NCBI RefSeq assembly: GCF_000733755.1
Contig: NZ_JPOF01000001.1
Location: forward strand, 290,001 to 354,000
Origin: Lachnoclostridium phytofermentans
Lineage (GTDB): Bacteria; Bacillota; Clostridia; Lachnospirales; Lachnospiraceae
Direction: 5' to 3'
DNA: 64,000 bases
The notes below the pieces were generated by a model. It was not told where the DNA came from. It searched no databases and saw nothing but the letters and a program-made list of their open reading frames with translations. Position numbers and translations under genes: made by a program. Shown piece after piece: positions 45,813 to 64,000 of the stretch; position 1 is the stretch's first letter; each line of letters opens with the position of its first letter.

Positions 45813-48116
45813 ATGTTATTTCGTAATTTAAAAATTCTAAAAAAATCAAGTGTTTATATGGTTTTTTTCTCTTCGTATATCTTAATATTGATTGTAGCTT
45901 TAAGTAGCGGCTTTGCTTATTATTCGCAGATAACGGCAAAAATTACGAAGCAAACTGAGAATACGAAACAGTTGTTATTAACAGAACTTCGTACCAGTGT
46001 CGAGTCAAGCACTAAATATATTGAGGAATTATGCAATGAGTTTACGTTCAATACGAAATTAGTTCAATTTGCAAAAGGGTTGCCCTCTGTAACACTACAT
46101 GAGGCGATGCAGGAATTGACACTGAGACAAAAACCAAGTGACCTTTTATTCGATTATTTTCTGTACATAAAAAATACTGATGAGATTATCACACCAAACA
46201 TACGAATGAAGGCAGATAAATTTTTTGATGTTATGTATTCCTTTGAGGCTTCAGAGTATGAAAAATTTAGAGATCAATTAAAGGGAAATCATTTTCAGAA
46301 TTATTTACCGATTATTAAGGTCAATCAATATGATAAAAATCCAGTTGATATATTGCCTTTACTTCAAACCTTTCCTGTTGGAACAAAGCAGAAACCTCTT
46401 GGCCAAGTCATAATTTTTATTAATGCTGAGGAACTATTTTCTATGGTTGAGCAGTTTCATGTTGCAACAGAATCTGATATCTATATTTATAATGAAAACA
46501 ATGTTTGCATCCTATCGAGTTCAGATGCTCCTTTGTTACCGGAAGAACTTGTAACTGATAAATCAGTAGGAAATAATACCAAGGATAGTATTGTTTTTCG
46601 ACAGTTATCCGATACACTGGGCTGGAAGTTTATCATCTCCACACCAAAGGATTTATTCTATTCTGAAAACTATGATTTTTTGCTCCGAATGATAGGAGTC
46701 ACAGTTGTATACCTGATTATTGGTATCGTAATAGTATCTTTCCTAGCAGAATATAGCTTTAAGCCAATTCGTGAGATTCGAAAGTACATTGATAAACACA
46801 CTAAGGTTGATGGTATAGTAAAGAATGAATTTGAAGTTATTAAAACTACTCTCAAAGAACAAATCACAAATGGTAGAGAACTTTCTGGGCTATTAGAAAG
46901 TCAAAAGCCAATTGTAAAACGTGAGGTACTTGGGAAATTGCTACGTGGGATGGTGACCGATTACAACAGCTTGAAAGAACGTTTTGTCCCGCTTGGAATC
47001 ACTTTTACAACGAATCAGTTTTATACAGTAGCTCTCGAGGTTTCAGAAGGATGTGATTTCTTTCGAATAGAAAATACAGAGAATGATCAAAGTATGATAC
47101 TGGCAAAGTTCATCCTGGAGAATGTTGGTTTGGATTTGTTTCAAGAAAAGTTTAACTATTACTACCTTGATATGGGACAAAATACAGCAGTTCTTTTATT
47201 AAATCCACTTAAGGAAGAAGAACTTGAGGTAGTAGAAGAAATCGTATACCAGAAGGTTTTCGAGTTAAATCAATTTCTTAAGAAGTATTATTCCTTATAT
47301 ATTTACACTGGTATTAGTAAGCAGCATCATACGTTAAAGGGTATTCAGCTTTGCTTTGATGAAGCCAGAAAAGCACTGGAACAACACAAACTATACGGTG
47401 GATTTGAGCCTTATTGCTTTTCAGAGTTAGAGAATTTGGAAGCGGATTATTATTACCCAAGCGAGATGGAATATCAATTATTACGCTATATCAAGACAGG
47501 TGAGAGTGATAAGGCGAAGCAATTATTACAAAGTATCCTTGATATTAATGCACGAAAGAAAAAAATATCGACAGGTGCAGCGAGAGGTCTGTTATTTGAA
47601 ATCTCAATCAGCTTAAAGAAGTTGTTTGATGGCGCCATGATATCAAGTGGGAAGGAGTCGAGTAACCTTCTGGACCTTGATAATTATATGAAAGCGCCAA
47701 ATCTTCAGGTTGCATTCCAAGATTTTTGTTCTTTGATTGATTGGTATCAGAAGGAGCGTGCGGAAGTTCCGGTTAGTAATAAGACAAAACGCTTGGTGGA
47801 TTCCATTGCTGAGTGTATTGAGCAAAATATTGGAGAGAACTGGCTTGATTTAAATGGACTTTCTTCAGAGTTTGGAGTTACTCCACAATATATATCCAAT
47901 ATCTTTAAGAAGTATAAGGATGAGAATATTAAGGACTATATCTCGAAACTTCGGTTAGCAAAGGCAAAAGAATTGCTTAGAGACACGGAACTACCGATTA
48001 AAGAAATTGCAAATCAATTAGGCTATGTTGGTGAGATTGGTGTAATACGTTTATTTAAGAAGTATGAGGGAATTACACCAGGAGATTACCGTAATCAGGT
48101 GCATGCAGGAAGTTAA
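45813..48116 (+). CDS. Membrane-bound AraC-family regulator with extracellular sensor
   Basis: This 767-residue regulator has a transmembrane segment near residues 13-35, an extracytoplasmic sensor region (about 40-290, dCache-like), a second segment near 291-313, a cytoplasmic linker and a C-terminal AraC helix-turn-helix (about 665-765). The HTH motifs are NGLSSEFGVTPQYISNIFKKY and IKEIANQLGYVGEIGVIRLFKKYEGITPGDYR. Such membrane AraC proteins in Lachnospiraceae and Paenibacillus usually sit beside LplB/YtcP-type sugar ABC systems and activate them when a sugar is sensed outside. Here that fits the locus to its right. GGGAGGGG lies before the ATG. Confidence 0.93.
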   Translation: MLFRNLKILKKSSVYMVFFSSYILILIVALSSGFAYYSQITAKITKQTENTKQLLLTELRTSVESSTKYIEELCNEFTFNTKLVQFAKGLPSVTLHEAMQELTLRQKPSDLLFDYFLYIKNTDEIITPNIRMKADKFFDVMYSFEASEYEKFRDQLKGNHFQNYLPIIKVNQYDKNPVDILPLLQTFPVGTKQKPLGQVIIFINAEELFSMVEQFHVATESDIYIYNENNVCILSSSDAPLLPEELVTDKSVGNNTKDSIVFRQLSDTLGWKFIISTPKDLFYSENYDFLLRMIGVTVVYLIIGIVIVSFLAEYSFKPIREIRKYIDKHTKVDGIVKNEFEVIKTTLKEQITNGRELSGLLESQKPIVKREVLGKLLRGMVTDYNSLKERFVPLGITFTTNQFYTVALEVSEGCDFFRIENTENDQSMILAKFILENVGLDLFQEKFNYYYLDMGQNTAVLLLNPLKEEELEVVEEIVYQKVFELNQFLKKYYSLYIYTGISKQHHTLKGIQLCFDEARKALEQHKLYGGFEPYCFSELENLEADYYYPSEMEYQLLRYIKTGESDKAKQLLQSILDINARKKKISTGAARGLLFEISISLKKLFDGAMISSGKESSNLLDLDNYMKAPNLQVAFQDFCSLIDWYQKERAEVPVSNKTKRLVDSIAECIEQNIGENWLDLNGLSSEFGVTPQYISNIFKKYKDENIKDYISKLRLAKAKELLRDTELPIKEIANQLGYVGEIGVIRLFKKYEGITPGDYRNQVHAGS

Positions 48117-48135
48117 AGAATATGTATTAAAACAG

Positions 48136-48200
48136 GGACCAAGAAATACCGCACCAATTGTAAAGCATTAATTTTACAAAGGTATTTCTTGGCCTTTTTT
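48136..48200 (+). terminator. Terminator after the AraC gene
   Basis: Inverted repeat GGACCAAGAAATACC / GGTATTTCTTGGCC with a nested inner stem (TTGTAAA/TTTACAA) and a run of six T at 48195-48200. Confidence 0.9.
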
Positions 48201-48387
48201 AGTTAGTATTTGGGTTGACGTGCTGTTGTTTTAACATACAATTCTAATATTATATTTTGATAATAAAACCTTAAAAATTGATAATCGCAGTTTAAGTATC
48301 GAATATCATCTTTAAACACTGGAAGTTTACGCTGAACAATCTCCAAGTTACAATTAATTTGTTATCAAAATTAAGGAGGTATTAGGT

Positions 48388-50757
48388 ATGCGAAAACAAA
48401 GCATGGAAAACCAAGGGGAAGTTGTCCAAACAGAAAGCGCACTAACCAAGGAAGTCACCCGAAGGCAAGCGATGAAAGCCATTGGTGCAGGGGGACTTTT
48501 AATTGCCTGTGCACCTCTTTTGTTTGGAAAAACAGCATCTGCTGCTACAGGAAAGGACAAGAAGCAGGCGCAAGAACAGGATGTTCTTTCTTTGACGGAT
48601 GTTGAGTCCCTAAAAAAACTTTCTAAGTCAGAACGAAAGGATGGAATGATAGTCAATCTACTAGGGTACTATAAGGCAGGCGATGCTGGTCAAAAAACCT
48701 TAGTCTACCTTTCAGAAAGCAAGGAAAAGGATAATGGTGGAACCGTTCATCGGCCAAACGATGGAGTGGGGGCATGGCATGTCATGCACGATGGTATTGG
48801 CTATTTTCGATGGTTTGGTATCTTTGACGAGAGTATACCAGCAGACAATGCATTAGAATCACTGGTAGGTGATGAGTCATTTCATCGAATTGAGGCAAGC
48901 AGTGATTTATTATTAATCAAGAGACATATTTTCCATCGAAGTAATTTAGAACTTGATTTTCAAAATCACACGATGTTTACCTATGGAGCTGAAAATGCAA
49001 ACAGAGATAATCCATTTGCAGCAATGATGTTTTTCCAAGGAGTAAAGGTTGGCAGTCCAATCACAGTTACATTACCGTTTGTAAAAAACGAGAAAGGTAC
49101 GTTAGTGGAAACAGAATTTAGCGAAGATTCGGACTATCTCTATGTTGGTAATAACAAAAAATTCGCTGAAAATGAATGGTATTATGTTGAGACAGATGTA
49201 CGCCCAATGGAAGAAGTGCCAGGGCGACTACCAATCGGTGGTGGAAGCAGTGATAAAGAGATACAAAAACTTCTTCGGGTAACCAAAGTTGGAAAGAGCG
49301 TTAATGATACCGAATATGTAGCATTTAACTACCTAAATGCATGGCCGCTAAAGAGCAAACGAAAGATTACCTATCAAAAGATTGAACCTGTATGCCATGT
49401 CAATGTGAAAAACCTTAAGTTTGAAGGACAAGGGCATTCTGATACTACAGGAACTAGTCCGGTAGCTCACGAATTCTGTGTAGACTGTAATATCACAAAT
49501 ATTCAAGCTACGAAAGTATTCTGGCCACTGAACCTTCGCAGATATTGTACTCAATATGAGGTCAGAGATTGCCTGCTAATGAATCCAGAAGAAGTCACCG
49601 TTGGTGGAACAGGATATTTAATACAACAAATAGGATGCCTTTATGGAAGTGTAATTAATTGTAGGGCTCATAATGTAAGACATCTAAATGATTTTACAGG
49701 ATGTGCGTATTCACTTGTAGAAAACTGCCATTGTACTGGGGATGAGAATGGAGCTTTTGTAACACATGGGCAATATGATCATGATTTAACTTACATAGGA
49801 AATTCAGGGTTCTTAAGCTTTGCCAATAGTGCCCTAAATGCTAAGGCATCCCATACCTGGGGGGGATTTCACAAGAGAATTGTAGTAAAAAAACACCAGG
49901 CTCCAAGGGTGGTTTTTGAGAATAAAATGAATCGTATTATTGATATGACATTAGAGGATTGCTATGTGTATCGTAATACAGAGCGTTATGGTGGCAATGG
50001 TGGTTCTGTGTGGGCAAATGTTGATGGTCTTATTATGAGAAACTGTGTATTAATGGGGCCGTTAGCATTAGGAGAGGACTCTTCTTTGTCTCATCGCCCG
50101 ACAATAATTGAAGGATGTACGATTCATATGTTGGATGGGCATTACCTTACCAGACATCGTGGCAGTACCTATGAAGTAGAAAGAGATATCACTTTTAAAA
50201 ATTGCATCTTTAAGAATATTGGCCAAAACTTTATTGTAAAAGGTGAGACAATGCGTTTTTACGATTGCCATTTCTATGCTGATCCTAATGCACCAACCAG
50301 CAGGTTAAATATAGAATCAAAACATGTGGTAATATCTGGCGGTGGCTTCCACAATGTTTGCTTAGCTTTTGATAAAGGTGGAACGACGACAGAAGCGGTA
50401 GGTGATCAGAGTTTGACTATCTGTGGTGGAGCGGTAATGGAAGGAAATAATGCGAGTGGTGCTTTAATTGATATAAAAAATAATGCTCATGTAATGTTAG
50501 ACTTTTCGCAAGCGGTATTTGCTCCTGGGCATAAGATGAAGATGATATCGCATACTCCCGAGGATGGAACAACTTCTACGGGTACATTAAGCTTACAGAT
50601 GCAAGGAACCACACTTAAGAATGCAGAATTAAGTATTAAGGAATCCTCATTAGGAAAGGGTTCCTATATCATGGTTCAGTCTTGTATATTAAAAAATAGT
50701 AAACTTGATTTGCCAAGTACAAGTCTCTCCTTGGTTATGAATAATTTGGTTCTGTAA
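48388..50757 (+). CDS. Tat-type exported right-handed beta-helix protein
   Basis: This 789-residue protein starts with a twin-arginine signal (TRRQAMKAIGAGGLLIACAPLL; Arg25-Arg26), hydrophobic to about 47 with an Ala-rich cleavage area near 50-53. A head region follows (VNLLGYYKAGDAGQKTLVYLS, about residues 86-106) like that of pectate-lyase and phage tailspike folds. A parallel beta-helix follows, with repeated short turns and a conserved block (GGTGYLIQQIGCLYG, about 410-424; RHLNDFTG; AFVTHGQYDHDLTY, about 455-468) rich in His and Asp. The same block occurs in the paralogue at 62052. I infer a polysaccharide lyase or hydrolase, but no named family matched. AAGGAGGTAT precedes the ATG. Confidence 0.8.
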   Translation: MRKQSMENQGEVVQTESALTKEVTRRQAMKAIGAGGLLIACAPLLFGKTASAATGKDKKQAQEQDVLSLTDVESLKKLSKSERKDGMIVNLLGYYKAGDAGQKTLVYLSESKEKDNGGTVHRPNDGVGAWHVMHDGIGYFRWFGIFDESIPADNALESLVGDESFHRIEASSDLLLIKRHIFHRSNLELDFQNHTMFTYGAENANRDNPFAAMMFFQGVKVGSPITVTLPFVKNEKGTLVETEFSEDSDYLYVGNNKKFAENEWYYVETDVRPMEEVPGRLPIGGGSSDKEIQKLLRVTKVGKSVNDTEYVAFNYLNAWPLKSKRKITYQKIEPVCHVNVKNLKFEGQGHSDTTGTSPVAHEFCVDCNITNIQATKVFWPLNLRRYCTQYEVRDCLLMNPEEVTVGGTGYLIQQIGCLYGSVINCRAHNVRHLNDFTGCAYSLVENCHCTGDENGAFVTHGQYDHDLTYIGNSGFLSFANSALNAKASHTWGGFHKRIVVKKHQAPRVVFENKMNRIIDMTLEDCYVYRNTERYGGNGGSVWANVDGLIMRNCVLMGPLALGEDSSLSHRPTIIEGCTIHMLDGHYLTRHRGSTYEVERDITFKNCIFKNIGQNFIVKGETMRFYDCHFYADPNAPTSRLNIESKHVVISGGGFHNVCLAFDKGGTTTEAVGDQSLTICGGAVMEGNNASGALIDIKNNAHVMLDFSQAVFAPGHKMKMISHTPEDGTTSTGTLSLQMQGTTLKNAELSIKESSLGKGSYIMVQSCILKNSKLDLPSTSLSLVMNNLVL

Positions 50758-50855
50758 AAGGTACGAAATAAACTAATCGCACGTAAAGTTTGTCTCTGAG
50801 CAATATGATACAAACTCTACATGTATAAAATTCGTGGACAGGAATGGAGGTTTCA

Positions 50856-51857
50856 ATGAATAGAAAATCAAACAAATCACACGTAATATATCGAGTTGTT
50901 GCCTTATTTGCAATGTTTTGTACTATAACAGGGCTGTTTGGTAATCAAGCCTTAGCAGCCAAAGTTACAACAGCAAAGGATATCAAGATTGGCCAATATA
51001 TTACATTTGGAACATACGATAAAGAGCCAATTCTATGGAGAGTGATCGACATAGATAAGGAAGGAAATCCATTACTCTATGCAGAGAATATCTTAACCTA
51101 TAAAGCGTTTGATGATCAATTATGGGTAGCAAATACTGCAAAAAATTACGGAAATAATTACTGGGCATCGAGTGACTTACGTGCGTGGTTAAATGGTGTT
51201 GGTGATGAGATTGCATATGATGCTTCTGGTGCTCCAAAATCTGGAACGACCAAGGACGGTTGGAATGCATACGAGGAGGAGCAAGGATTTTTAACGGAGT
51301 TCACGAATGAGGAGCGAGACGCAATTGTTTTAACCAAGCATAAACAATTGATTGATGAGGTAAATAGTACCTCTTCCTCAGTTGTAAATAAAGATGCCAA
51401 ACTACACCGCTATGAAAGTGCTATGAAGGATTGTCTTACAAACTATGAGGAAGCTAGATATTTAGTTACGGAAGAGAAGGTATTTTTACTAGATATAAAA
51501 GAGTTTTATACTCTTATCTATCAGGCTGGATTTCCAGTAGTGAAAGAGCCAACGAAGAATGCAAAAGAAAAGAATGAAGCTAAAAATAAATTATCATTCT
51601 CTCCTTATTGGTTAAGAACTCCTAGGGCAAGTTATGCAGAAGAGAGTGCTGATCCAAAGTATGGAGGAATCTCAGCAAAACCGGATGGTGCGAGTGTACG
51701 AGTAGTATATGGAAAGGATTATATCCTAGCAAAAGATGCTTATGATGGAAGTGTTGGTGTAATCCCTGCATTATATCTGGATAAGGATTGTATTTTATCT
51801 GAGGGGAAAGGAAGCATTACTTCTCCATATCGTACCAAGGGATTAAACGAGAAATAG
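50856..51857 (+). CDS. Secreted DUF6273-domain protein
   Basis: This 333-residue protein has a signal peptide (about residues 15-34, ending NQALAAK). The rest matches the DUF6273 pattern: an N-terminal beta strand (KIGQYITFGTYDKEPILWRVIDID), then WASSDLRAWLNGVGDEIAYD near 110-130, and a C-terminal block SPYWLRTPRASYA. DUF6273 is a formylglycine-generating-enzyme-like C-type lectin fold and is often found in surface proteins; function is not settled. The ATG at 50856 with GGAGGT at 50846 is preferred over an ATG at 50844 that overlaps it. It lies about 100 bases after the beta-helix gene, with no terminator between, so the two may be cotranscribed. Confidence 0.8.
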   Translation: MNRKSNKSHVIYRVVALFAMFCTITGLFGNQALAAKVTTAKDIKIGQYITFGTYDKEPILWRVIDIDKEGNPLLYAENILTYKAFDDQLWVANTAKNYGNNYWASSDLRAWLNGVGDEIAYDASGAPKSGTTKDGWNAYEEEQGFLTEFTNEERDAIVLTKHKQLIDEVNSTSSSVVNKDAKLHRYESAMKDCLTNYEEARYLVTEEKVFLLDIKEFYTLIYQAGFPVVKEPTKNAKEKNEAKNKLSFSPYWLRTPRASYAEESADPKYGGISAKPDGASVRVVYGKDYILAKDAYDGSVGVIPALYLDKDCILSEGKGSITSPYRTKGLNEK

Positions 51858-51967
51858 GTAGATAATACTGTGAAAGAACAATACTATATAGGATAACAAA
51901 TTATTAGAAAAGGACAAGAGAGAAAGAGAAGAAGCAAGAGAAAAATCAATAAAATAAAAAGCGAAAG

Positions 51968-52012
51968 AAAATGTCACCAGGGAAGAATAAAATCTTCTCT
52001 GGTGACATTTTA
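51968..52012. terminator. Terminator after the DUF6273 gene
   Basis: Inverted repeat AAAATGTCACCAGGGAAGA / TCTTCTCTGGTGACATTTTA with one loop, and A/T tails on both sides; it may be shared with the convergent oxidoreductase gene. Confidence 0.85.
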
Positions 52013-52050
52013 CTGTAGAATGGATAATGAGGTAAACCTATATTAAAAAA

Positions 52051-52114: not shown

Positions 52115-52123
52115 GTTGGAACT

Positions 52124-53011
52124 TTATTTCACAGAGAGATTAGAGAAAGGAACTTCATTTTTAGTGCGGATTGCTTCTTCAAGTGCATTTAACAATAGTA
52201 CTGGGCGAAGGAGGCTATCAAAATCCTCAGGCATTTGTCCTCTTTTTAGGGCGTCAACATATTTTTGAAAGCCCTGACGATAGACCGTTGCAATACTAAT
52301 AGGATGAGTAATAACCTTATTCTTAGCATAAATTGTTGCAAAGAAATCAGAAACTTCTGCAAAATGTATCGTTACAGCAAAATCCTCATATTTAAAAAGA
52401 GCAATTAAATTACCACAGTGTACATCTGTTTTCACGCTGATTGGATTCTTTCCAAAAACCGTAGTCATTATTTCAATCGCATGACCTCCATAAAAATAAA
52501 TTCCACCATATGGGCTTGTCAATTCACCTGGAAAGTTAAAATTAGCTGAAATAACGGAATGCTGTTGGTGTAAAAAATTAAATTCCTTCTGTAATAAAAG
52601 TACGTCTGGGCAGTATTTGCAGGTGGAACCACCAGCGAGTAGAGTATGAGTTTTCTTCGCTGCTTCAATTAACTTCCTTGTTTCGTCTGGTTGTATGGTA
52701 AAGGGTTTATCAATCCAGGTTGGAATACCAGCTTCCACAAATGGCAGTGCGTACTCATAATGGAGATTACCATGACGAAATACAACCATAACTGCATCTA
52801 CGGTAGAAAGCATTTCTTTTGGATGATTAACAATCGTTTCAATCTTTCCTTCTTTTGCTACCTCGATTGTCCTTTCCTTATCAAGTCCATAGATAGAGGT
52901 GACTCGAACATCATCATATAAGTAATTTCCATCTTCCTCTGGCAGGTTTGCTAGCTTAGAAAATGCTAATGCATGAGAGTTATCAGAGCCTATTATGCCA
53001 ATACGTATCAT
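52124..53011 (-). CDS. Gfo/Idh/MocA-family oxidoreductase
   Basis: This 295-residue NAD(P)-dependent sugar or sugar-acid dehydrogenase has the N-terminal Rossmann motif IGIIGSDNSHA (GxxG-like, residues 3-13) and the loop WIDKPFT near residues 97-103, where most relatives have EKP. The C-terminal part has the conserved GGHAIEIMTTVFG near 175-187. The oxidised sugar is unknown. GGAAGTTAAC lies before the ATG, a moderate site. It is separated from the DMT transporter gene by about 200 bases, so it may have its own promoter. Confidence 0.88.
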   Translation of the reverse strand: MIRIGIIGSDNSHALAFSKLANLPEEDGNYLYDDVRVTSIYGLDKERTIEVAKEGKIETIVNHPKEMLSTVDAVMVVFRHGNLHYEYALPFVEAGIPTWIDKPFTIQPDETRKLIEAAKKTHTLLAGGSTCKYCPDVLLLQKEFNFLHQQHSVISANFNFPGELTSPYGGIYFYGGHAIEIMTTVFGKNPISVKTDVHCGNLIALFKYEDFAVTIHFAEVSDFFATIYAKNKVITHPISIATVYRQGFQKYVDALKRGQMPEDFDSLLRPVLLLNALEEAIRTKNEVPFSNLSVK

Positions 53012-53207: not shown

Positions 53208-54119
53208 CTAAATATTAATAAATACAATTGCAAGAACACCTAACAAGATACCTATTTTTCCACGTGTAGACAACTTCTCATGAAAGAATAACGTAGAAAT
53301 TATTGTAATTCCGAGGATAATACTGCCTTGTACGAGTGGAAACAAATAGCTGCTAGGGATTTTTCCTGCTAAACTTGTTAATAACAGGTTACCAAGAAGA
53401 GAGCCTGCTGCTAAAAAAAGAATTGGAATTAAGTTCTCTTTCGCTTTCTTTTTCGGGCTTAAGATAATACTCCCCTTATTTGAAGAACTTTGTTTCACAA
53501 CAGGATAGGCAATAAAGTAGCAAAGAGATGCAAAGGCAAAGCCAAGTAACATGAGCCCAGAGGCTTCAGTACCATGTTGGAGATGCTGATGAAGCTTTTG
53601 TACAATAGCAAGGCAGCCATTCCCTATGAAAGTTAAAATGCAATAGAGGAGCCATTGCCTTTTTTGTTTTCTTTGAGTGGAAGAAGCAGATTCATCCTTC
53701 GATTCTTTTGTTACGTTAAGAAAATAGAATGCTATTAGGAATAGCATAATTGCTACTATAAGTGTCCAACGAAGTTCTTCTTTTAAAAAGAGGAGACCGA
53801 AAAGGGTTGGAAGCAGCATACTGGAAGAAAAATAAAAGGCAGTATAGGATAGAGGACCGCTGTTGATAGCTAGATTATAAAACAGTATGGTAAAGGCAAA
53901 TAAAAATCCGAAAAGAATGCCGAAGAGTACGGTATTTTTACTAAATGTGAATGGTTCTTTCGATAGGAATAAAAATAAGCACATACCAATCCCTGCAACT
54001 AGAGTAAAAGATCCGTGAATCAGCATCTTTTCGGGTAACGTTTCCGCTTTAATAAATTTCATTGATACGGATTGGAGGATAAAGAATGTGATGCTTAAAA
54101 TCAAAAGTAGGGTTGTCAT
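53208..54119 (-). CDS. DMT/EamA-family transporter
   Basis: This 303-residue membrane protein has ten hydrophobic segments and the EamA repeat layout (two halves of about five segments). It belongs to the drug/metabolite transporter superfamily, whose members export or import small metabolites such as amino acids or sugars. A central charged loop with SSTQRKQKRQ lies near residues 140-150. It sits between the oxidoreductase and the M20 gene in the same orientation. It may export a waste product or import a monomer of the locus; the direction is not known. Confidence 0.85.
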   Translation of the reverse strand: MTTLLLILSITFFILQSVSMKFIKAETLPEKMLIHGSFTLVAGIGMCLFLFLSKEPFTFSKNTVLFGILFGFLFAFTILFYNLAINSGPLSYTAFYFSSSMLLPTLFGLLFLKEELRWTLIVAIMLFLIAFYFLNVTKESKDESASSTQRKQKRQWLLYCILTFIGNGCLAIVQKLHQHLQHGTEASGLMLLGFAFASLCYFIAYPVVKQSSSNKGSIILSPKKKAKENLIPILFLAAGSLLGNLLLTSLAGKIPSSYLFPLVQGSIILGITIISTLFFHEKLSTRGKIGILLGVLAIVFINI

Positions 54120-54197
54120 TGAAACCTCATTTCTAGCGCTTATATAAGGTGTTAGCGCATTGTTTAAAAGTATGTTTTTTGGAAAATTTATTTGGTA

Positions 54198-55559: not shown

Positions 55560-55580
55560 GTTTACCTCCATTTGTGCTCC

Positions 55581-55789: not shown

Positions 55790-56845
55790 TTAAAATTGAG
55801 TGAGAAAGACTTTTACAAAGTCATTATCAGTTAAATGAGGATACATCTTTTCAACACGTTTAATTTCTTCTAATTGATTTACGGACAATACTTCTTCCTC
55901 ATTTAAACACCAGATACCATCCATAAGTCCCTGTTCCATTAAAATTTCATGAACACCAGGAATACAGCCTGCAAAGTTATTTGCTACATCAAAGAAGGCT
56001 CCATTGCAATCCGTTACTTCAATTGCTAGCGAGAGTAAATCGCTTGGTATCATAGACTCGCGTTGATATTTCTTAAGATCAGAAAACAGTTTTACTACGG
56101 TATTCGTCCAAAGGGACCAGTGACCGAGTAAACCTCCGACAAATCGCTTTTCTATCTGCTTTCCATCGATTGTAAAACGAAATGGTGTTAGTAAATCTAC
56201 AACAATATTATCGTCATTTCCAGTATAAAGAGCCACTTCTTCACTTCTTTTTGATGCAGCAACACCACGGACAAGATCTATGGTTTGATAACGGTTAAAG
56301 GAAGCACATTTGATGGCAACCACATTCGGGGTATCTGCAACAGCCCTCCAATATTCATAAGAGAGACGTCTTCCACCACAGGCTGTTTGTAGATAAAAGC
56401 CGATGACAGGAATAATTTCTGCTACAGCTTTTGTTCTTTCAACAAGGTAGTCTTCATTTTCTTCTAATAACCCTCCAGGACTTAGTAAAACAGCATCATA
56501 GCCAAGTGATTTTGCAAGTTTTGCTTCGCTGACTGCTTGTTCTGTCCTTCCGCAAGCACCCGCAACCCGGATAATTGTCTTTCCAGTCTCCTGTTCATAT
56601 TTTGTGATTTCTTCTGCTGCTACCGTAAGTACTGGTTCCAATAAATTAATTTCAGGCTTTCTGATTTCAAACTGAGTGGTATGTACTGCAACTGCTACAC
56701 CACCAACACCTGCATGAAGATAATACTTCACTAGTTTTCGTTGACCTTCCTCATGAAAGCTACGGTCACTATGGAGTGCAAGTGGGATAGCAGGAATTAC
56801 AGTACCCTCCTTTAAATTATAGAGAGCGGTTTCGTGTCGATTCAT
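55790..56845 (-). CDS. DapA-superfamily aldolase/lyase
   Basis: This 351-residue class I aldolase-type enzyme has the TIM-barrel DapA pattern. GVGGVAVAVHTTQF near residues 47-60, the Tyr in IGFYLQTACGG and the Schiff-base Lys in VAIKCASFNRYQ near 176-187 are visible. DapA relatives include N-acetylneuraminate lyase, 2-keto-3-deoxygluconate aldolase and dihydrodipicolinate synthase. It is longer than the usual 290-300 residues, with a C-terminal extension (NQLEEIKRVEKMYPHLTDND). ATG overlaps the stop of the epimerase gene by one base, so both are cotranslated. The likely job is retro-aldol cleavage of a keto-deoxy sugar acid. Confidence 0.85.
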   Translation of the reverse strand: MNRHETALYNLKEGTVIPAIPLALHSDRSFHEEGQRKLVKYYLHAGVGGVAVAVHTTQFEIRKPEINLLEPVLTVAAEEITKYEQETGKTIIRVAGACGRTEQAVSEAKLAKSLGYDAVLLSPGGLLEENEDYLVERTKAVAEIIPVIGFYLQTACGGRRLSYEYWRAVADTPNVVAIKCASFNRYQTIDLVRGVAASKRSEEVALYTGNDDNIVVDLLTPFRFTIDGKQIEKRFVGGLLGHWSLWTNTVVKLFSDLKKYQRESMIPSDLLSLAIEVTDCNGAFFDVANNFAGCIPGVHEILMEQGLMDGIWCLNEEEVLSVNQLEEIKRVEKMYPHLTDNDFVKVFLTQF

Positions 56846-57861
56846 TAGAAATTCCCCTTTCTTTCTTCAAAATGTGTTGGCTTTCCTAGAGAACGTCCTC
56901 CTGATAGAATCCATTCTGCCTGCCAATCAATTAAGGTGTTGATAGAAACGGTTGGATAGCCAAAGAGTTCTGCCATCTTACTAGCATTGTTTAAGTAAGC
57001 AGTAGAAGACTCTTCTCCTACGAAACTTACCTCTTTCCCAAGTTTCTTTGCTAATTTTAGAGCGGTCTCTCTGACACCAATGGTTTCTGGTCCGGTAACG
57101 TTTAAACGGAAGATAGAGTTGTCAGCATGGAGTAGAAGTCTAATTGCCACTTCATTTGCATCTCCCTGCCAGATGCAATTAAAGCAAGGGCTCTCTAAGG
57201 AAATCGGACGATGATTCATGATATTCTCTGCAATGTCGTAGAGCACGCCATAACGAAGGTCAACGGCATAGTTTAATCGATAAATCGCAAGTTTGGTTCC
57301 ATAAGTTTTTGCGCCATACTCAAAGATACGTTCTCTAGAAAGGCTTGACATTGCATATTCTCCAACCGGTTCCGGATGGGTTTCTTCCGTAGCACCTCCA
57401 CTATAAATAGCAACCTTTGGATAAATGTTTCCGGTTGAAAATGCAACGATACGGCTTTCTTTAAAGTGCTCCATAACAAGAGAAGGAACGGTTGCATTCA
57501 TAGCCCAGGTTTGATACTCATTTCCGTTTGTACCAAACTTTTTGCCTGCCATATAGATAATATTCTCTACTTTTGGAAGGGAAGCAACTGCTCCGGCCTC
57601 CAATAAATCAGCAGAAATCATCTCTATCTTATGATCACTAAGGAGCTTTTTTACAATCGGATCGCTAAAACGCGATACAGCGATTATTCGCTTATTTACA
57701 CCTGCCATCTCACAGGCACGCTTTGCAAGTAAGCTAAGCGTTGGCCCCATCTTTCCACCAGCACCGAGAATCATAATATCACCAGTAATCTTTTTCATAT
57801 CTTCGATCAGCGCATTTGACGGGTTGGTCAATAACGTATCTAATCTTTCTTCAGTCCACAT
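56845..57861 (-). CDS. Extended SDR (NAD-dependent epimerase/dehydratase-like)
   Basis: This is a 338-residue Rossmann-fold protein. The nucleotide loop MILGAGGKMGPTLSLLAKRA near residues 30-49 (GxxGxxG) and the serine in AFSTGNIYP near 140-148 fit extended SDRs. The usual YxxxK is YAMSS here (EYAMSSLSRERIFEYG near 168-183): the Tyr is present but the Lys position is Ser, so normal proton-shuttle chemistry is in doubt. It may be a catalytically altered epimerase, reductase or a binding protein. The gene starts the leftward operon with a GGAGGAG site and overlaps the DapA-like gene. Similar pairs occur in sugar-acid loci. Confidence 0.82.
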   Translation of the reverse strand: MWTEERLDTLLTNPSNALIEDMKKITGDIMILGAGGKMGPTLSLLAKRACEMAGVNKRIIAVSRFSDPIVKKLLSDHKIEMISADLLEAGAVASLPKVENIIYMAGKKFGTNGNEYQTWAMNATVPSLVMEHFKESRIVAFSTGNIYPKVAIYSGGATEETHPEPVGEYAMSSLSRERIFEYGAKTYGTKLAIYRLNYAVDLRYGVLYDIAENIMNHRPISLESPCFNCIWQGDANEVAIRLLLHADNSIFRLNVTGPETIGVRETALKLAKKLGKEVSFVGEESSTAYLNNASKMAELFGYPTVSINTLIDWQAEWILSGGRSLGKPTHFEERKGNF

Positions 57862-58240: not shown

Positions 58241-59221
58241 ATGGGGATGAAAAAGGATAAAAGAAAAGAAGGGAGAGCCAGACCCAGTAAAGAGGTAAGA
58301 GCGCGAATAAGGCATCGAAACCAAGTACTAATTAAAAGAAACTGGGCGCTGTACTTATTTATATTACCTGCGTTCCTGTATTTTCTAATATTTGCTTATG
58401 TACCTATGTATGGAGTACAGATTGCCTTTAAAGACTTTATTGCTACAAAAGGATTTGGGGGAAGCCCTTGGGCAGATCCGATTTTTAAACATTTTCTAAC
58501 GTTTTTTAGTTCGGTTAACTTTTCACAGATATTTATGAATACGATCACCCTTTCCTTATATTATATGGCAGTTAGTTTTGTAACACCAATTATCTTAGCC
58601 TTAATGATTAATGAAGTTGGGAATAAGTATTTTAAGAAGACAGTACAAAACATTACATACATGCCTTACTTTATCTCAACTGTAGTACTTGTTGGTATGA
58701 TTGATCTTTTTCTTTCAAGAAATGGATTATTCAATCAAATCGGAGGAGCATTATTTAACTCGGAACCAACGATGTTTTTGATGAAGGACAGCTTGTTCAA
58801 TGATATTTATGTGTGGAGTGGTGTATGGCAGGTTACCGGATATGGTGCAGTAATTTACATTGCCGCATTGAGTGGTGTTTCGCCTGAACTTCATGAAGCA
58901 GCTATTATGGATGGTGCAGGGCGAATGCAGCGAATCCGACATATCAATTTACCGGCGATTATGCCAACCATTGTAGTAATGTTGATAATGACGGTCGGTG
59001 GTATCATGAACCTTTCCTTTGAAAAAGTGTTACTGATGCAAAAGGATGGAAACATGATGGTGTCGGAAGTAATCTCTACCTATGTATATAAATTAGGTAT
59101 TCAAAGGGCACAGTACAGTTTATCTTCTGCTGTCGGATTATTTAATAATGTAATTAACTTAATCTTATTAGTAACTGTCAATAAAATATCAAGAAAAGTC
59201 AGCGAAAACTCATTATGGTAG
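58241..59221 (+). CDS. Sugar ABC transporter permease, LplB type
   Basis: This is a 326-residue inner-membrane permease. Six hydrophobic segments follow a basic N-terminal tail (about residues 1-35). FILPAFLYFLIFAYVPMYGVQIAFKDF near residues 41-67 is typical of the LplB family. The EAA loop is PELHEAAIMDGAGRMQRIRHINLPAI near 210-235. This class pairs with a YtcP-type permease and a large lipoprotein and imports complex oligosaccharides; the ATPase (MsmK-like) is usually encoded elsewhere and is not seen here. GGAGG at 58227 lies about ten bases before the ATG. It is the first gene of the importer operon. Confidence 0.93.
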   Translation: MGMKKDKRKEGRARPSKEVRARIRHRNQVLIKRNWALYLFILPAFLYFLIFAYVPMYGVQIAFKDFIATKGFGGSPWADPIFKHFLTFFSSVNFSQIFMNTITLSLYYMAVSFVTPIILALMINEVGNKYFKKTVQNITYMPYFISTVVLVGMIDLFLSRNGLFNQIGGALFNSEPTMFLMKDSLFNDIYVWSGVWQVTGYGAVIYIAALSGVSPELHEAAIMDGAGRMQRIRHINLPAIMPTIVVMLIMTVGGIMNLSFEKVLLMQKDGNMMVSEVISTYVYKLGIQRAQYSLSSAVGLFNNVINLILLVTVNKISRKVSENSLW

Positions 59222-59236
59222 AAAGGAGGGGGATAC

Positions 59237-60148
59237 ATGAAGCGAAAGAATAGAATGAAACAATCCAGAGGAGACAAGATCTTTGTTATCATCAATTATA
59301 CTCTCTTAACTGTAATATTACTGTTATGTCTCTACCCTCTATGGTTTGTTATTATTTCATCAGTTAGTAATCCAGACCTAGTAAATTCAGGAAAGGTATG
59401 GTTGCTTCCAAAAGAAATTAGTTTTACTGGTTACAAAAACCTATTTAATGACAAAAGTATTATTAGAGGTTATATCAATACCTTAATTTATACAGGTGGA
59501 GGCACTTTGTTAAATCTAGCGGTTACATTACCAGCGGCTTATGCACTGTCTAGAAAAGATTTTGTAGGAAGAAAGTTTTTTACACTGATGTTTCTATTTA
59601 CCATGTTTTTCTCTGGTGGGTTGATTCCAACCTTTATGACAGTAAAAAACCTTGGTTTATACAACAATCCATGGGTTATGGTAATACTCGGTGCAACGTC
59701 CATGACGAATATTATTATTAGCCGAACGTTTTTTATGACGAATATTCCAAATGAGTTACATGAAGCAGCTCAAATTGATGGCTGCGGAAACGTAAGGCTC
59801 TTTCTACAGGTCGTGTTACCAATATCCACTGCAATCTGCGCTGTAATGGCTCTGTTTTTTGCAGTAAATCACTGGAACGGTTATTTTACAGCATTAATTT
59901 ACATTCGTGATGATCGATATAAGCCACTTCAAATTATAATGAGAGAAGTTTTAATGAGGAGTCAGTTTAACGCGGAGATGTTACAACAAGGTGGTGATTC
60001 TGCAGGATTATTACAAGAGGAGCTAAAAGCAGCAGAGCAGATTAAATATGCATTAATCGTAGTTGCTTCACTCCCAGTAATGGCAATTTATCCATTTATT
60101 CAGAAGTATTTTGTAAAGGGCGTAACGGTAGGTGCAGTAAAAGGGTGA
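59237..60148 (+). CDS. Sugar ABC transporter permease, YtcP type
   Basis: This 303-residue permease has six hydrophobic segments and a carbohydrate-importer pattern: FFSGGLIPTFMTVKNLGLYNNPW near residues 116-138 and the EAA loop NELHEAAQIDGCGNVRLFLQVVLP near 173-196. The C-terminal PVMAIYPFIQKYFVKGVTVGAVKG is diagnostic of the family. AAAGGAGGGGG lies before the ATG. It is 15 bases after the LplB-type gene, so the two form one heterodimer. Confidence 0.94.
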   Translation: MKRKNRMKQSRGDKIFVIINYTLLTVILLLCLYPLWFVIISSVSNPDLVNSGKVWLLPKEISFTGYKNLFNDKSIIRGYINTLIYTGGGTLLNLAVTLPAAYALSRKDFVGRKFFTLMFLFTMFFSGGLIPTFMTVKNLGLYNNPWVMVILGATSMTNIIISRTFFMTNIPNELHEAAQIDGCGNVRLFLQVVLPISTAICAVMALFFAVNHWNGYFTALIYIRDDRYKPLQIIMREVLMRSQFNAEMLQQGGDSAGLLQEELKAAEQIKYALIVVASLPVMAIYPFIQKYFVKGVTVGAVKG

Positions 60149-60220
60149 TATTTTAACCAAAACTACACAAATCGTGATATAATTTAGCCAAGTGAAATTA
60201 TTATAAGAGGAGGATTCATT

Positions 60221-61900
60221 ATGAAGTTTAAGAAACTTGTAGCAATGGGGCTTTGCACATGTCTGGCGGTATCTATGCTAGCTGGATGCGGTAAGAAGAA
60301 TGATGATCAAGCAAATAATAATGGTACGGTGGCTCCAACAGAGGGGCAAAGTAATCCATCTGGTGGTGACACTGGAAAAGATGATATGCCAGAAAATGTG
60401 AATGCGGTAGGTGTTTATCCAATTGTAAAAGAGCCAATCACACTTACGATTATGGGACGTAAGGATCCAGGAGCTACGGATTGGGGTGAACTTGAGGTAT
60501 TCAAACGCTTAACAAAAATCACTAACATTAATTTTGAGTTTGAATTATCAGAAGGTGATACCTTCGTAGAACAAAAGAATATCGCATTAGTGGGTGGTGA
60601 ATATCCAGATTTAATTTTACGTGCAGATACTTCTTCTATCACGGACGAAGAAACTTATGGACCACAAGGAGTATTCCTAGACTTAACAGATTTAATTGAT
60701 AAGTATGCTCCAAATATCAAAGCATTATTAGAGGAGCGTCCTGACATTAAAGCAGCGATTACTTCTATGGATGGTAAGATTTATGGATTACCATATGCAT
60801 TCCAGACAGCAACAACACAAGCGCACACTGGATTCTTTGATTCTAAGTGGATGGAGAACGTAGGGATCACAAAGGTTCCAGAAACAACAGATGAATTATA
60901 TGATATGTTAGTGAAGTTTAAAGAAATGGATGCGAATGGAAATGGTGATCCTAATGATGAGATTCCATTTAGCTGTTCCGGTTTAAATACAACAATTCGT
61001 CGTCTTTTAATACCAGCATTTACGGGTACTGCAGAAGGTTTAGGATTTGATATCAAAGATGGTGAAGTTGTATATGCACCAGCTCTACCAGAGTATAAAG
61101 AGTTTTTAATCTATGCAAACAAGCTTTATAGCGAGGGATTACTTGATCCAGAGTTTTCAACACAAACAAGCCAACAGTGGCAGGCTAAGGTAAAAGCAGA
61201 TATGTGTGGAATATACTCCGCTTCTCCAACTTTATTGGATCCAGAAGTGACAACTACGCAGCAGTTATCTCTTCCTCCATTAACAAGCAGTTCGAATGAT
61301 AAGAAGGTAGCTATTCAGCCAGATAACTTATATCCAGCCAGAGGATTTATCACAGATAAATGTAAAGACCCAGTAGCAGCAATCCGCTTACTTGATATGT
61401 TCTACGCAACTCCAGAAAATGCTGTAGAAGGCTTTTCCGGTCAGACTTTATTCCTTGGATGGGAAGGTGAACATTGGAAATACACTGACGACACGAAAGA
61501 GCATTATCAATGGATTGATCCAATCACTGGATTTGGTGATATCAATAAATCCATCTCAGTCAATATGGAATTACCAGGATACTTAAACTTTACTGCTGGC
61601 CCTGCTGGAAATCCATTGATGGAGATGAAGGTAGAACAAGTAAACAAGATGCAGAAACCTTATTATACTACTGCTTACCCTATTAATGCTAGATTTACAG
61701 CAGAGGAATCCGAGCGAGGTAATGTAATTGAAAATGATTTATATACCTATGTAACAATGATGACTACTAAGTTTATCATTGGTGAAGTAAGCATCGATAA
61801 GTTTGATGAATACATTGATACATTAAATAAGACAGGTCTTCCAGAGCTATTAGAAATCAAGAGAGCAGCTTTAGCAAGATGGAATGAGGCTATGAAGTAA
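60221..61900 (+). CDS. Extracellular sugar-binding lipoprotein
   Basis: This is a 559-residue solute-binding protein for the ABC importer. The signal peptide ends in the lipobox LAGC with lipid-modified Cys23 (MLAGCGKK), then an Asn/Gly/Asp-rich linker (about 24-60), then the typical binding lobe. It belongs to the large (about 500-560 residue) family of oligosaccharide-binding lipoproteins found with LplB/YtcP permeases. GLPYAFQTATT and GEVVYAPALPEYKEFL are family-like. AGAGGAGGA lies before the ATG. The ligand cannot be told from sequence, but the neighbours suggest a poly- or oligosaccharide with acidic or modified sugars. Confidence 0.93.
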   Translation: MKFKKLVAMGLCTCLAVSMLAGCGKKNDDQANNNGTVAPTEGQSNPSGGDTGKDDMPENVNAVGVYPIVKEPITLTIMGRKDPGATDWGELEVFKRLTKITNINFEFELSEGDTFVEQKNIALVGGEYPDLILRADTSSITDEETYGPQGVFLDLTDLIDKYAPNIKALLEERPDIKAAITSMDGKIYGLPYAFQTATTQAHTGFFDSKWMENVGITKVPETTDELYDMLVKFKEMDANGNGDPNDEIPFSCSGLNTTIRRLLIPAFTGTAEGLGFDIKDGEVVYAPALPEYKEFLIYANKLYSEGLLDPEFSTQTSQQWQAKVKADMCGIYSASPTLLDPEVTTTQQLSLPPLTSSSNDKKVAIQPDNLYPARGFITDKCKDPVAAIRLLDMFYATPENAVEGFSGQTLFLGWEGEHWKYTDDTKEHYQWIDPITGFGDINKSISVNMELPGYLNFTAGPAGNPLMEMKVEQVNKMQKPYYTTAYPINARFTAEESERGNVIENDLYTYVTMMTTKFIIGEVSIDKFDEYIDTLNKTGLPELLEIKRAALARWNEAMK

Positions 61901-61911
61901 AAATTTAAGAT

Positions 61912-61970
61912 AAGGCTGCTGTGAGATGAAATAGTACGTAAGGATATTCATTTTTCAGTAGCCTTTTTAT
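61912..61970 (+). terminator. Attenuator/terminator after the lipoprotein gene
   Basis: Inverted repeat AAGGCTGCTG / CAGTAGCCTT (one G-U) followed by TTTTA. It may lower transcription into the downstream beta-helix gene, as is usual after highly expressed binding proteins. Confidence 0.65.
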
Positions 61971-62051
61971 TCGATATCCGCTTTGACCAATCGAAATGAG
62001 TCACAGTAGTTACCGATGTAGTCCAAGAAATAACTTTATGAGGGATAGAAT

Positions 62052-63383
62052 ATGCAGAAAGAAATGACAGCCTTTGAGACAGACTTTAGTAGATACGGAA
62101 TACTAGATGCATCTGTCCCGGCAGATAGCGCATTGGAACAGATGCTTGCAGATGAGAAAATTCGAGTAATTCATGCGTATACGCCACTTAATTTTACGAA
62201 AAGACATCATATAAAACGTGATAATATTACCTTTGATTTTCATGGAAATATGGTAACCGCAATTGGAATCGAGCATGCAAAACATAACGACCCATTTTCT
62301 GCGTTATTTCATGTTGCCGGGGAGAGGCTTAGTGAAATACGAAGTGTCAGTTTATCTCATCCGCTTAAGGAGCTTTATGATATTTTTGAAGTGGATGATT
62401 CTAGCCAGTTTGAACTAGATTCTTGGTGGATTGTTACTTGTAATGCCTTAATCGGCAGAGAAGAAAAAGAAATTGATAAAATGCTACAGGTAACAGAAAT
62501 CATTGATAAGACTCATGTCCGCTTTAATTATAAGATGGGATGGCCCCTTGAAACTGGTAGAACGTTAACCTACCAAAAAGTAAAGCCCATCGTTGATGTT
62601 TCAGTTAGTAATATGAGATTTCATGGAAATCAGGATGGAGAAGAAACTGGCGTAGAACCACTAGCTTTTGAATATGCAGTCAATTGCAATGCGAATAACA
62701 TTCATGCAAAGTTTACCTATTGGCCAGTAATATTGCGCCGGCATAACACAGGCTATGTTACTGAGAAGTGCTCCTTACATAATCCTATCGAGGTAGTAGT
62801 TGGAGGTACTGGTTATCTGACACAACAAATACATTGTCTTTATGGAAAGGTCAGAGATTGTGAAGCAAGCAATGCAAGACACTTAAATGACTTTACCGGC
62901 AGTGCATATTGTATGGTGGAGAACTGTCACGGTGACGGTGATTTCCATGGTGCTTTTGTCACTCATGGGCAATTTGAGCACGACCTTACCTATATTGGAA
63001 ATTCCGGACTTCTTTCCTTTGCCAATAGTGGACCAACCTGGGGTTCCAGCGCAAAGAGAATTACAGTAATACGCCATGTGGGCTGTTGGGGGCTTGCTTT
63101 TGCAAAGGTCAGCGATTTAACCTTACAGGATGTAGTGATACGAAAGACAGAAAAGTATGAGGAATGTGGAAATCTTCTATTAAATGCAGATGGTCTTCAG
63201 GTGAGAGGGTGTGAGGCGGATCGGTTAATCCTTACACAGCGTTCCAATCGTTCCAAACGTCCTGTTGTGATTGAAAACAGTTATTTTATGGAAGGTGTTG
63301 AAATTACAACGACAGGTGAAGCAGCGGTTAACAATAAAGTGAACATCATAAATACAATAGACAAAGAAGGAAAGGAATGTTGA
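62052..63383 (+). CDS. Cytoplasmic right-handed beta-helix protein (paralogue of the 48388 protein)
   Basis: This 443-residue protein has no signal peptide. It matches the middle of the 789-residue protein at 48388: YGILDASVPADSALEQML aligns with its WFGIFDESIPADNALESL, and the conserved block (GGTGYLTQQIHCLYG, RHLNDFTGSAYCMVENCH, AFVTHGQFEHDLTYIGNSG, then LSFANS) is nearly the same. It lacks the tailspike-like head and the C-terminal region. Repeated His, Asp and Glu in the block may form the active site. Location is cytoplasmic, suggesting it cuts an imported oligosaccharide. GAGGGATAG lies before the ATG. It is third in the ABC importer group. Confidence 0.8.
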   Translation: MQKEMTAFETDFSRYGILDASVPADSALEQMLADEKIRVIHAYTPLNFTKRHHIKRDNITFDFHGNMVTAIGIEHAKHNDPFSALFHVAGERLSEIRSVSLSHPLKELYDIFEVDDSSQFELDSWWIVTCNALIGREEKEIDKMLQVTEIIDKTHVRFNYKMGWPLETGRTLTYQKVKPIVDVSVSNMRFHGNQDGEETGVEPLAFEYAVNCNANNIHAKFTYWPVILRRHNTGYVTEKCSLHNPIEVVVGGTGYLTQQIHCLYGKVRDCEASNARHLNDFTGSAYCMVENCHGDGDFHGAFVTHGQFEHDLTYIGNSGLLSFANSGPTWGSSAKRITVIRHVGCWGLAFAKVSDLTLQDVVIRKTEKYEECGNLLLNADGLQVRGCEADRLILTQRSNRSKRPVVIENSYFMEGVEITTTGEAAVNNKVNIINTIDKEGKEC

Positions 63384-63471
63384 ATAAAAAGCGTTTCAAC
63401 ATTTCATAGAAATTGAGACTAGAGTTGTTTCAGTTTTGTTAGCGCGTCGCAACGCGTAGATAGGTACCCAT

Positions 63472-64000
63472 ATGTTAAATATATTAGTTACAATCCCTAA
63501 ATTAAGTGCAGTATTCCCAACATTTTTTGACGATAAACGAAGAAAAGAACTTGAAAGCATTGGTAATGTTATCTGGAATGATTCTGACAAGCAATTTACA
63601 AAAGAAGAATTCGCGGAAAAATTGAACGATATTGATATTTGTGTAACTGGCTGGGGAACTCCTGTGATGGACGAAGAAGTATTAGCCTCTGCGAATCGTC
63701 TTCGATTTATTGCTCATACGGGTGGTTCCGTAAAGCCTTATGTCACGGATGCCTGCTATGAGAGAGGAATTCGTGTGGTTAGCGGTAATTCGGTTTTTGC
63801 AGAAAGTGTGGCAGAAGGTGTGATAGCTTATGCACTTGCCTCATTAAGAGATATTCCTAAGTTTTCTCTTGAGCTAAAGCAGGGAATATGGCCAGCACAG
63901 TTTTATAATCGTGGGTTATTAGAACGAGAGGTTGGTATTGTTGGATATGGAATGATTGCACGTTATGTAGTTTCGATGTTAAAGCCATTTCATTGTGGAA
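63472..64000 (+). CDS. D-isomer-specific 2-hydroxyacid dehydrogenase, truncated by window end
   Basis: Only the first 176 codons are in the window. The N-terminal half reads MLNILVTIPKLSAVFPTFF and continues through ITGW-like sequence (ICVTGWGTPVMDEEVL), FIAHTGGSVKPYVTD, VVSGNSVFAESVAEGVIAYALAS and then the start of a Rossmann domain (REVGIVGYGMIARYV, GxGxxxx). This is the pattern of D-3-phosphoglycerate/hydroxypyruvate reductase-type enzymes, using NAD(P)H on a 2-keto acid. The gene continues past the window. The ribosome binding site is weak (ATAGGTAC). It may reduce the keto acid made by the locus. Confidence 0.85.
   Translation, partial: MLNILVTIPKLSAVFPTFFDDKRRKELESIGNVIWNDSDKQFTKEEFAEKLNDIDICVTGWGTPVMDEEVLASANRLRFIAHTGGSVKPYVTDACYERGIRVVSGNSVFAESVAEGVIAYALASLRDIPKFSLELKQGIWPAQFYNRGLLEREVGIVGYGMIARYVVSMLKPFHCG

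Follow-up and report, generated by a model that had tools for sequence, protein, structure and literature searches.

A rare, conserved locus of Lachnoclostridium phytofermentans with two probable tail-spike-type lyases and a candidate pathway for acidic polysaccharides

The stretch of Lachnoclostridium phytofermentans DNA analysed here (the window; 64,000 nucleotides, G000:C1:290001-354000) carries a locus that begins at position 45813 and runs 1.9 kb beyond the window end. We describe two beta-helix proteins of this locus, BH1 and BH2, which are probable lyases of the phage tail-spike type, together with the regulator, importer and putative sugar-acid enzymes encoded around them. An AraC regulator, BH1 and a DUF6273 protein are encoded on the plus strand. 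They are followed by a minus-strand block with genes for a short-chain dehydrogenase/reductase (SDR)-like protein, a DapA-like protein, an M20 amidohydrolase, a DMT transporter and a Gfo/Idh/MocA oxidoreductase, and by a second plus-strand block holding LplB, YtcP, a solute-binding lipoprotein, BH2 and a 2-hydroxyacid dehydrogenase, the last of which is cut by the window end. The genes listed are open reading frames at the positions given, as established by an open reading frame check and by naming with Pfam and NCBIfam. Two genomes were used for comparison: a congener, the metagenome-assembled genome of Lachnoclostridium phytofermentans isolate UBA11728 (L003; G127:C244 has the same match coordinates and the two were counted once), and Subdoligranulum variabile from another family.

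45813..48116, plus strand: AraC-type regulator, 767 aa (HTH_18, E 5.6e-18); 89% identity in the congener, 36% in Subdoligranulum
48388..50757, plus strand: BH1, a 789-aa beta-helix protein with a TRRQAMK start and a phage-type N-terminal module
50844..51857, plus strand: DUF6273 protein (PF19789, E 1.6e-11), with a signal-peptide-like start by reading
52124..53011, minus strand: Gfo1, Gfo/Idh/MocA oxidoreductase, 295 aa (PF01408, E 5.8e-13)
53208..54119, minus strand: DMT/EamA-family transporter (PF00892, E 1.6e-12)
54198..55571, minus strand: M20 amidohydrolase, 457 aa (TIGR01891, 184.4 bits, above the cut-off of 153.75)
55790..56845, minus strand: DapA-like protein of the DHDPS superfamily (PF00701, E 1.5e-7)
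56845..57861, minus strand: extended-SDR-like protein (NAD-epimerase; PF01370, E 5.6e-8)
58241..59221, plus strand: LplB-type permease of a carbohydrate ABC importer (PF00528, E 2.1e-10); 77% identity in Subdoligranulum
59237..60148, plus strand: YtcP-type permease (PF00528, E 5.1e-10); 77% identity in Subdoligranulum
60221..61900, plus strand: lipoprotein-like solute-binding protein (TIGR03850, E 5e-6, far under the cut-off); 69% identity in Subdoligranulum
62052..63383, plus strand: BH2, a 443-aa beta-helix paralogue of BH1; 64% identity in Subdoligranulum
63472..64473 in window numbering, plus strand: D-2-hydroxyacid dehydrogenase, 333 aa (PF02826, E 3.4e-50; whole gene at L004:472-1473)
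64589-65863, beyond the window end, after the 2-hydroxyacid dehydrogenase: second Gfo/Idh/MocA gene (Gfo2)
L004:5732-7061: tatB/tatA/tatC-like run, with TatC assigned by Pfam and the two small genes by reading

The AraC regulator is apparently membrane-anchored, as judged by reading, and is the probable sensor of the inducer. Beyond the window, Gfo2 is followed by a GNAT gene, and serine dehydratase beta and alpha genes were also found there by reading, with 30-39% identity to an annotated L-serine ammonia-lyase of Prescottella. Among the locus proteins scanned with Pfam none matched a glycoside hydrolase family, as the first-pass annotation of this DNA had remarked; its grouping of the listed genes likewise agrees with the open reading frames, the Pfam and NCBIfam names and the order in the congener.

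The gene order between the AraC and SDR genes is identical in the congener, whose contig stops at the SDR gene; a second contig carries the genes for the lipoprotein, BH2 and the 2-hydroxyacid dehydrogenase. Protein identities over both contigs are 81-96%, and the DUF6273 gene adjoins BH1 there as well. Because the order is kept as far as the two contigs reach, the grouping is not due to chance. A Subdoligranulum variabile contig holds the start of the SDR gene, LplB, YtcP, the lipoprotein, one beta-helix gene, the 2-hydroxyacid dehydrogenase, Gfo2 and the AraC gene (36-77% identity) with an additional GNAT gene at 33%; the end of the SDR gene and DapA (70-72%) lie on a separate 1170-base fragment from that assembly. 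The Subdoligranulum stretches read showed no M20, DMT, Gfo1 or DUF6273 gene, the contig breaking off within the SDR gene. Relatives of the beta-helix proteins were found in 2 of 299 genomes of the family (the own genome and the congener) and in 1 of 391 genomes of the class (the own genome); in a phylum sample 3 of 398 genomes matched, namely the own genome and two with weak matches confined to the N-terminal module. The locus is real, conserved and rare.

Two side observations concern the Subdoligranulum comparison. The record OY725879.1 (L019, L024) is entered as a circular 215-kb plasmid, yet it is probably a chromosomal contig, since an AsnRS-like gene is among its genes and the record starts within its first gene. 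By reading, genes resembling those for KDPG aldolase and KDG kinase, accompanied by an IclR-like regulator, were noted some 11 kb away from the Subdoligranulum locus (L019:20924-23018).

BH1 and BH2 are 41% identical over 436 columns (E 1e-105), and this identity, together with the predicted structures, bears out the earlier description of them as two paralogous beta-helix proteins. Pfam gave no match for either protein at E<=1, NCBIfam none at E<=0.1 save the TAT-signal model, below its cut-off, on BH1, and PHROGs just phrog_4250 on BH1 (E 0.037). Sequence searches of the PDB with BH1 and with an 11-row profile failed to place the beta-helix proteins in a known family; the Pfam Beta_helix model was matched by 2 of 11 family rows, with a best E of 0.0012. 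By tblastn, the tail spike of Escherichia phage ESCO8 was matched at E 3e-20 with BH1 and 1e-29 with BH2, and further relatives were three Vibrio phage proteins, five IMG/VR contigs and, via a bridging viral protein, an Acinetobacter phage protein. Judged from these sequence matches, BH1 and BH2 belong to a rare family that they have in common with a few phage tail spikes.

On one of the IMG/VR contigs a prophage precedes genes that by reading encode a porin, AcrAB and an AraC-type regulator, and two tandem beta-helix genes close the contig (L015:1-4446). One of these two is split, and the best identity to BH2 is 49-50%. The contig is probably part of an enterobacterial chromosome. Megablast against E. 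coli gave no match for the tandem pair or for its acrB-like neighbour, and 1 of 72,556 plasmid records was matched, with the enterobacterial-type beta-helix query.

An alignment of 14 family members was made without the congener BH1, which contains a run of N, and without L056, whose sequence missed the motif filter. Seven residues (BH1 numbering) are invariant in all 14 members: G407, R431, H432, D435, H460, H465 and G492. The column aligned with the active-site tyrosine of the K1 lyase holds Tyr in 11 members and His in the other 3.

Predicted structures support a beta-helix fold for both proteins. The BH2 model has a mean predicted local distance difference test (pLDDT) value of 84.9 and a predicted template-modelling score of 0.88. 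The mean pLDDT of the BH1 model is 66, and many beta-helices tie near Z 25 on it, so that this model is not decisive. Both models match tail-spike depolymerases, and the top Foldseek entries for BH2 are the AP22 gp54, K1 lyase, S2-4, P560, phi297 gp61 and LKA1 gp49 spikes. In VIA-align the highest Z for BH2 belongs to AlgE epimerases (29.4-29.5 over 310-314 residues), whereas S2-4, phi297, K1 lyase, AP22 and LKA1 reach Z 27.4-28.6 with 383-404 residues superposed; other listed beta-helices superpose mostly over 275-330 residues. Z alone does not discriminate, and coverage favours the spikes with an insertion. A right-handed parallel beta-helix with a beta-barrel insertion (the rider), as in spike lyases of the K1/LKA1 type, was found in the fold models and by hhalign of the rider.

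Since the adhesin PfbA is among the structural matches and the family is rare and common to phages, BH1 and BH2 might be phage-derived binding or adhesion proteins, with the catabolic genes forming an independent neighbouring system. We regard this as very unlikely, as BH2 lies between the importer and the 2-hydroxyacid dehydrogenase in two bacterial families, has no visible export signal, and shares with the family a strict conservation of polar residues that is typical of an active site.

Enzymatic activity of the lyase kind is suggested by two profile comparisons. The BH family (12 rows) was aligned by hhalign to the family of the K1 capsule lyase (5 rows), again without the congener BH1. 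The probability was 95.1, E 3.1e-8 and the score 74.3 over 370 columns, against 23.9 and 24.8 for reversed controls and 24.4 for the best of 60 column shuffles. The rider insertion alone gave E 6.5e-9 and a score of 53.0, the best of 40 shuffles reaching 21.5. Rotated alignments kept their score except one (50.7), as the rider stays whole, and hence provide no null. In this alignment, Y311, R333/H334 and H373 of the K1 lyase are in register with Y255, R276/H277 and H305 of BH2, the catalytic region alone not being significant. The BH Arg-His falls on R333/H334 and the Thr-His on T372/H373, residues that all five K1-family rows share. For the K1 lyase, H373A is reported to be inactive and Y311A to retain about 0.4% (PMC8822698).

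The second comparison was made with LKA1 gp49, a proven beta-eliminating O-antigen lyase whose likely active site is reported to contain the conserved residues Arg329, Arg459 and His499 (PMC5701251). The score was 36.5 at a probability of 20%, the best of 60 shuffles reaching 26.5. BH2 residues R276, H277, H305, H310 and K139 fall on R459, H460, H494, H499 and R329, respectively, and Lys or Arg occurs at or beside the K139 column in all seven aligned rows. By these profiles BH1 and BH2 are distantly related to two tail-spike lyases established by experiment, and that both alignments single out the same BH residues is in our view the strongest argument for lyase chemistry. The first-pass annotation had proposed a catabolic locus in which the beta-helix proteins may do the cleaving; this is strengthened by the remote lyase kinship and by the active-site residues in register. 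It had also called the locus a candidate for an undescribed one; no clear hit of these proteins to a characterised family with a known substrate was obtained, the relation to the K1 and LKA1 lyases being remote.

The N-terminus of BH1 reads TRRQAMK followed by a hydrophobic stretch, and BH1 is probably exported by the twin-arginine translocation (Tat) system. The sole TatC of the genome lies 6 kb past BH2 and 18 kb past BH1. TatC is rare in the family, being above the cut-off in 5 of 150 genomes, both BH1 genomes among them, and the split relative on the IMG/VR contig likewise opens with a twin-arginine-like stretch. No export signal is visible in BH2 by reading. BH1 is a probable extracellular polysaccharide lyase, and for BH2 we propose the role of a cytoplasmic oligosaccharide lyase.

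The SDR-like and DapA-like genes were followed outside the beta-helix genomes in 21 comparison loci: 9 plasmid-collection records and 1 Bacillota genome found via DapA, and 11 Clostridia genomes found via SDR. The plasmid collection gave 20 records with a DapA match, two of them Subdoligranulum fragments, and nine neighbourhoods were read. The two genes occur together in 20 of the 21 loci, directly adjacent in 17 and with one gene between in three (GNAT in Tistrella and Sulfitobacter, TetR in Nitratireductor); for G733 no DapA was found in the stretch read. The pair was seen in members of the Clostridia, Bacilli, Actinomycetota, Alphaproteobacteria and Planctomycetota. At E<=1e-30 SDR was found in 12 of 148 class genomes, and the DapA-like protein in 2 of 199 phylum genomes, the own genome included in both counts. 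None of the 21 stretches, which span 4-21 kb, gave a beta-helix match. All six gene types consequently occur together in the window genus only, Subdoligranulum having part of the set, and elsewhere SDR and DapA come without a beta-helix gene in the stretches read.

The partners of the pair vary: LplB/YtcP was found in four of the loci and a related 2-hydroxyacid dehydrogenase in two (Streptomyces and Glaciihabitans, 29% identity). M20 was found in six, with 45-48% identity in four clostridial loci and 26% in two. The gene run SdaA-M20-SDR-DapA-Gfo1 is present in two genomes of one clostridial genus, where Gfo1 is 35% identical, and in Prescottella a serine ammonia-lyase, M20, SDR and DapA are grouped. 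Two further features were seen by the way. Large S-layer-homology proteins are encoded immediately upstream of the run of serine dehydratase, M20, SDR and DapA (L070, L071), and in two genomes belonging to a single clostridial genus (L074, L077) a gene of the URO-D family lies a short way upstream of the pair.

M20 and serine dehydratase beside SDR-DapA, where the stretch read shows no beta-helix gene, would also fit a module that degrades a conjugate of a sugar acid and an amino acid, such as a capsular uronoyl-serine amide. M20 would then free serine directly, with the lyases acting on the same capsule. This explanation is decidedly improbable in our judgement, given that serine dehydratase was found in just 3 of the 21 loci and that 15 of the 21 stretches gave no M20 match.

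The DapA-like protein keeps the Schiff-base lysine of the DHDPS/NAL enzymes, in an A(I/V)K motif, in all 11 aligned sequences, and is predicted to be an aldolase or dehydratase. The NCBIfam model that fits it best describes a subfamily of 5-dehydro-4-deoxyglucarate dehydratases (E 5.8e-8), with 31.9 bits where the cut-off is 278; on the KdgD model TIGR03249 it scores 27.9 bits, below the cut-off of 373.95. M20 is proposed to be an N-acyl-amino-acid deacylase.

We infer that the locus serves the utilisation of an acidic polysaccharide, uronic-acid-containing and possibly N-acylated, and that its depolymerases are two tail-spike-type lyases. The analysis shows the gene content, the family relations, the fold models, the register of active-site residues and the conservation. 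The export route, the lyase chemistry, the location of BH2 and each step of the pathway are put forward as a proposal. Exported BH1 would cut the polymer by beta-elimination, and the LplB/YtcP/lipoprotein importer would take up the oligosaccharides. Cytoplasmic BH2 would shorten these to unsaturated units, which would open into 4-deoxy-5-keto sugars. Oxidation at C1, for which the SDR-like protein and the Gfo/Idh/MocA enzymes are candidates, would give a 2-keto-3-deoxy acid (a keto-deoxy diacid), from which the DapA-like enzyme would form pyruvate and a C3 semialdehyde by retro-aldol cleavage (or dehydration). A plain uronate would yield tartronate semialdehyde as the C3 product, to be reduced to glycerate, and a 2-acylamino-uronate would yield N-acyl-aminomalonate semialdehyde, to be reduced to N-acylserine. 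The reductase may be the 2-hydroxyacid dehydrogenase or Gfo. M20 could free serine from N-acylserine, and the serine dehydratase encoded downstream could yield a second pyruvate. The N-acylserine branch would account for the M20 deacylases and serine dehydratase that accompany SDR-DapA in some loci, and the results are compatible with the N-acylated acidic sugar suggested as substrate by the first-pass annotation.

We put the chances that tail-spike-type lyases feed the SDR-DapA module at about even. The N-acylserine branch, considered alone, is improbable. A shade less probable is the complete picture, in which secreted and cytoplasmic tail-spike-type lyases, Tat export and a new route for N-acyl-2-amino-uronic acids via N-acylserine act together, perhaps on the capsules or O-antigens of other bacteria.

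Several results weigh against parts of this scheme. The significance of the K1 link stems from the rider insertion, and the catalytic rungs stay at null level: the catalytic region alone scores 21.7 against K1, within the range of its null, in which 60 shuffles reach up to 23.4 and the reversed control 22.9. The bacterial BH rows alone reach E 0.005 (score 32.7) and the phage rows alone 5e-7. Of single members against the K1 family, 10 of 12 score 18-26 and just two phage members 44-46, and the profile against the K1 lyase sequence alone is not significant (E 0.094). K1 R397, likely the carboxylate neutraliser, has no clear counterpart, as its column holds Ser333 in BH2; Lys335-Arg336 of BH2 lie near this column and are lacking in the ESCO8 spike. 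Other spike pairs reach 31.9 (KP34 gp57 against the K1 family) and 26.9 (KP34 against the BH family), so the LKA1 score is modestly above the inter-spike level. As the catalytic region failed its null, the lyase claim rests on rider homology, the register and the LKA1 match. Regarding export, the TIGR01409 TAT model gives 15.0 bits on BH1, below its cut-off of 16.7, TatC lies 18 kb away from it, and the two genomes with BH1 and TatC belong to one genus and thus count as one event. In the pathway, the GEY motif of the SDR-like protein is followed by no Lys at the fourth residue in 11 of 11 aligned orthologues; the protein thereby lacks the YxxxK lysine of a canonical SDR and may not be a simple dehydrogenase. 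Two of the three loci with serine dehydratase come from one genus, and this frequency has no null; over 30 kb of the Subdoligranulum contig serine dehydratase was not found.

The fold also occurs in hydrolases. AP22 gp54, the first Foldseek match of BH2, is one, and Pantoea stewartii WceF is a bacterial stewartan hydrolase resembling a tail spike (PMC7949094). BH1 and BH2 could likewise be glycoside hydrolases of the tail-spike fold, with SDR-DapA handling a hydrolytically released sugar acid, and the invariant Asp435 and the Glu/Asp464 (13 Glu and 1 Asp among 14) could act as acids. We consider this a serious but rather unlikely alternative, because the invariant R-H and T-H-x4-H coincide with active-site residues of the K1 and LKA1 lyases and the downstream enzymes of keto-deoxy-acid type fit lyase products.

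Elsewhere in the genome GH88/105-type (7 matches) and KduI-type (2 matches) genes were found, so the usual unsaturated-uronate route is present apart from the BH locus. An Rfam scan gave rRNA and tRNA matches only. Further beyond the window (L004:10366-18744, G000:C1 about 363366-371744) lies what reads as a natural-product-like cluster with radical-SAM/SPASM-like proteins, a peptidase-like protein and an adenylation-domain protein.

The first-pass annotation did not mention the kinship with phage tail spikes, the twin-arginine-like signal near a Tat operon or the occurrence of SDR-DapA elsewhere without beta-helix genes in the stretches read. To our knowledge, bacterial catabolism of amino-uronic acids is poorly known, and in the open-licence literature we found no paper on the BH locus, the SDR-DapA pair or an N-acylserine route. 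If lyases of the tail-spike type do feed SDR-DapA as proposed, an anaerobe employs phage-type capsule lyases as digestive enzymes, and phage depolymerases and bacterial glycan-utilisation loci share one enzyme pool. A function would be indicated for the uncharacterised SDR-DapA pair, and amino-uronic acid breakdown would gain a defined and testable hypothesis. The locus, a glycan utilisation locus by kind, possibly holds a new catabolic branch.

The closest known systems are the following. ORF34 of Klebsiella phage NTUH-K2044-K1-1 (PDB 7W1C) has a beta-helix with a rider, and its Tyr, Arg-His and Thr-His align with the BH proteins, but identity is 10% and R397 is not kept. ORF34 is a virion protein whose substrate is the K1 capsule, whereas BH1 has a twin-arginine-like start and BH2 is without the N-terminal module. 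LKA1 gp49 (PDB 4RU4) and phi297 gp61 (4RU5) share the beta-helix with beta-barrel insertion, and 390-404 of their residues superpose on the BH2 model; they differ in the remote sequence, the C-terminal jelly roll and the particle-binding domain. The oxidative uronate pathway, which uses uronate dehydrogenase and a KdgD-type enzyme, follows the same logic of an SDR and a DapA-superfamily enzyme, and the DapA-like protein scores best in NCBIfam with a model of KdgD type. However, the scores are far below the cut-offs, the SDR is without the YxxxK lysine, and M20, DMT and Gfo genes are extra. WceF (PMC7949094) is like BH1 and BH2 a bacterial enzyme with a tail-spike fold, but it is a hydrolase of an exopolysaccharide synthesis cluster, whereas the BH genes are placed in an uptake and catabolic locus.

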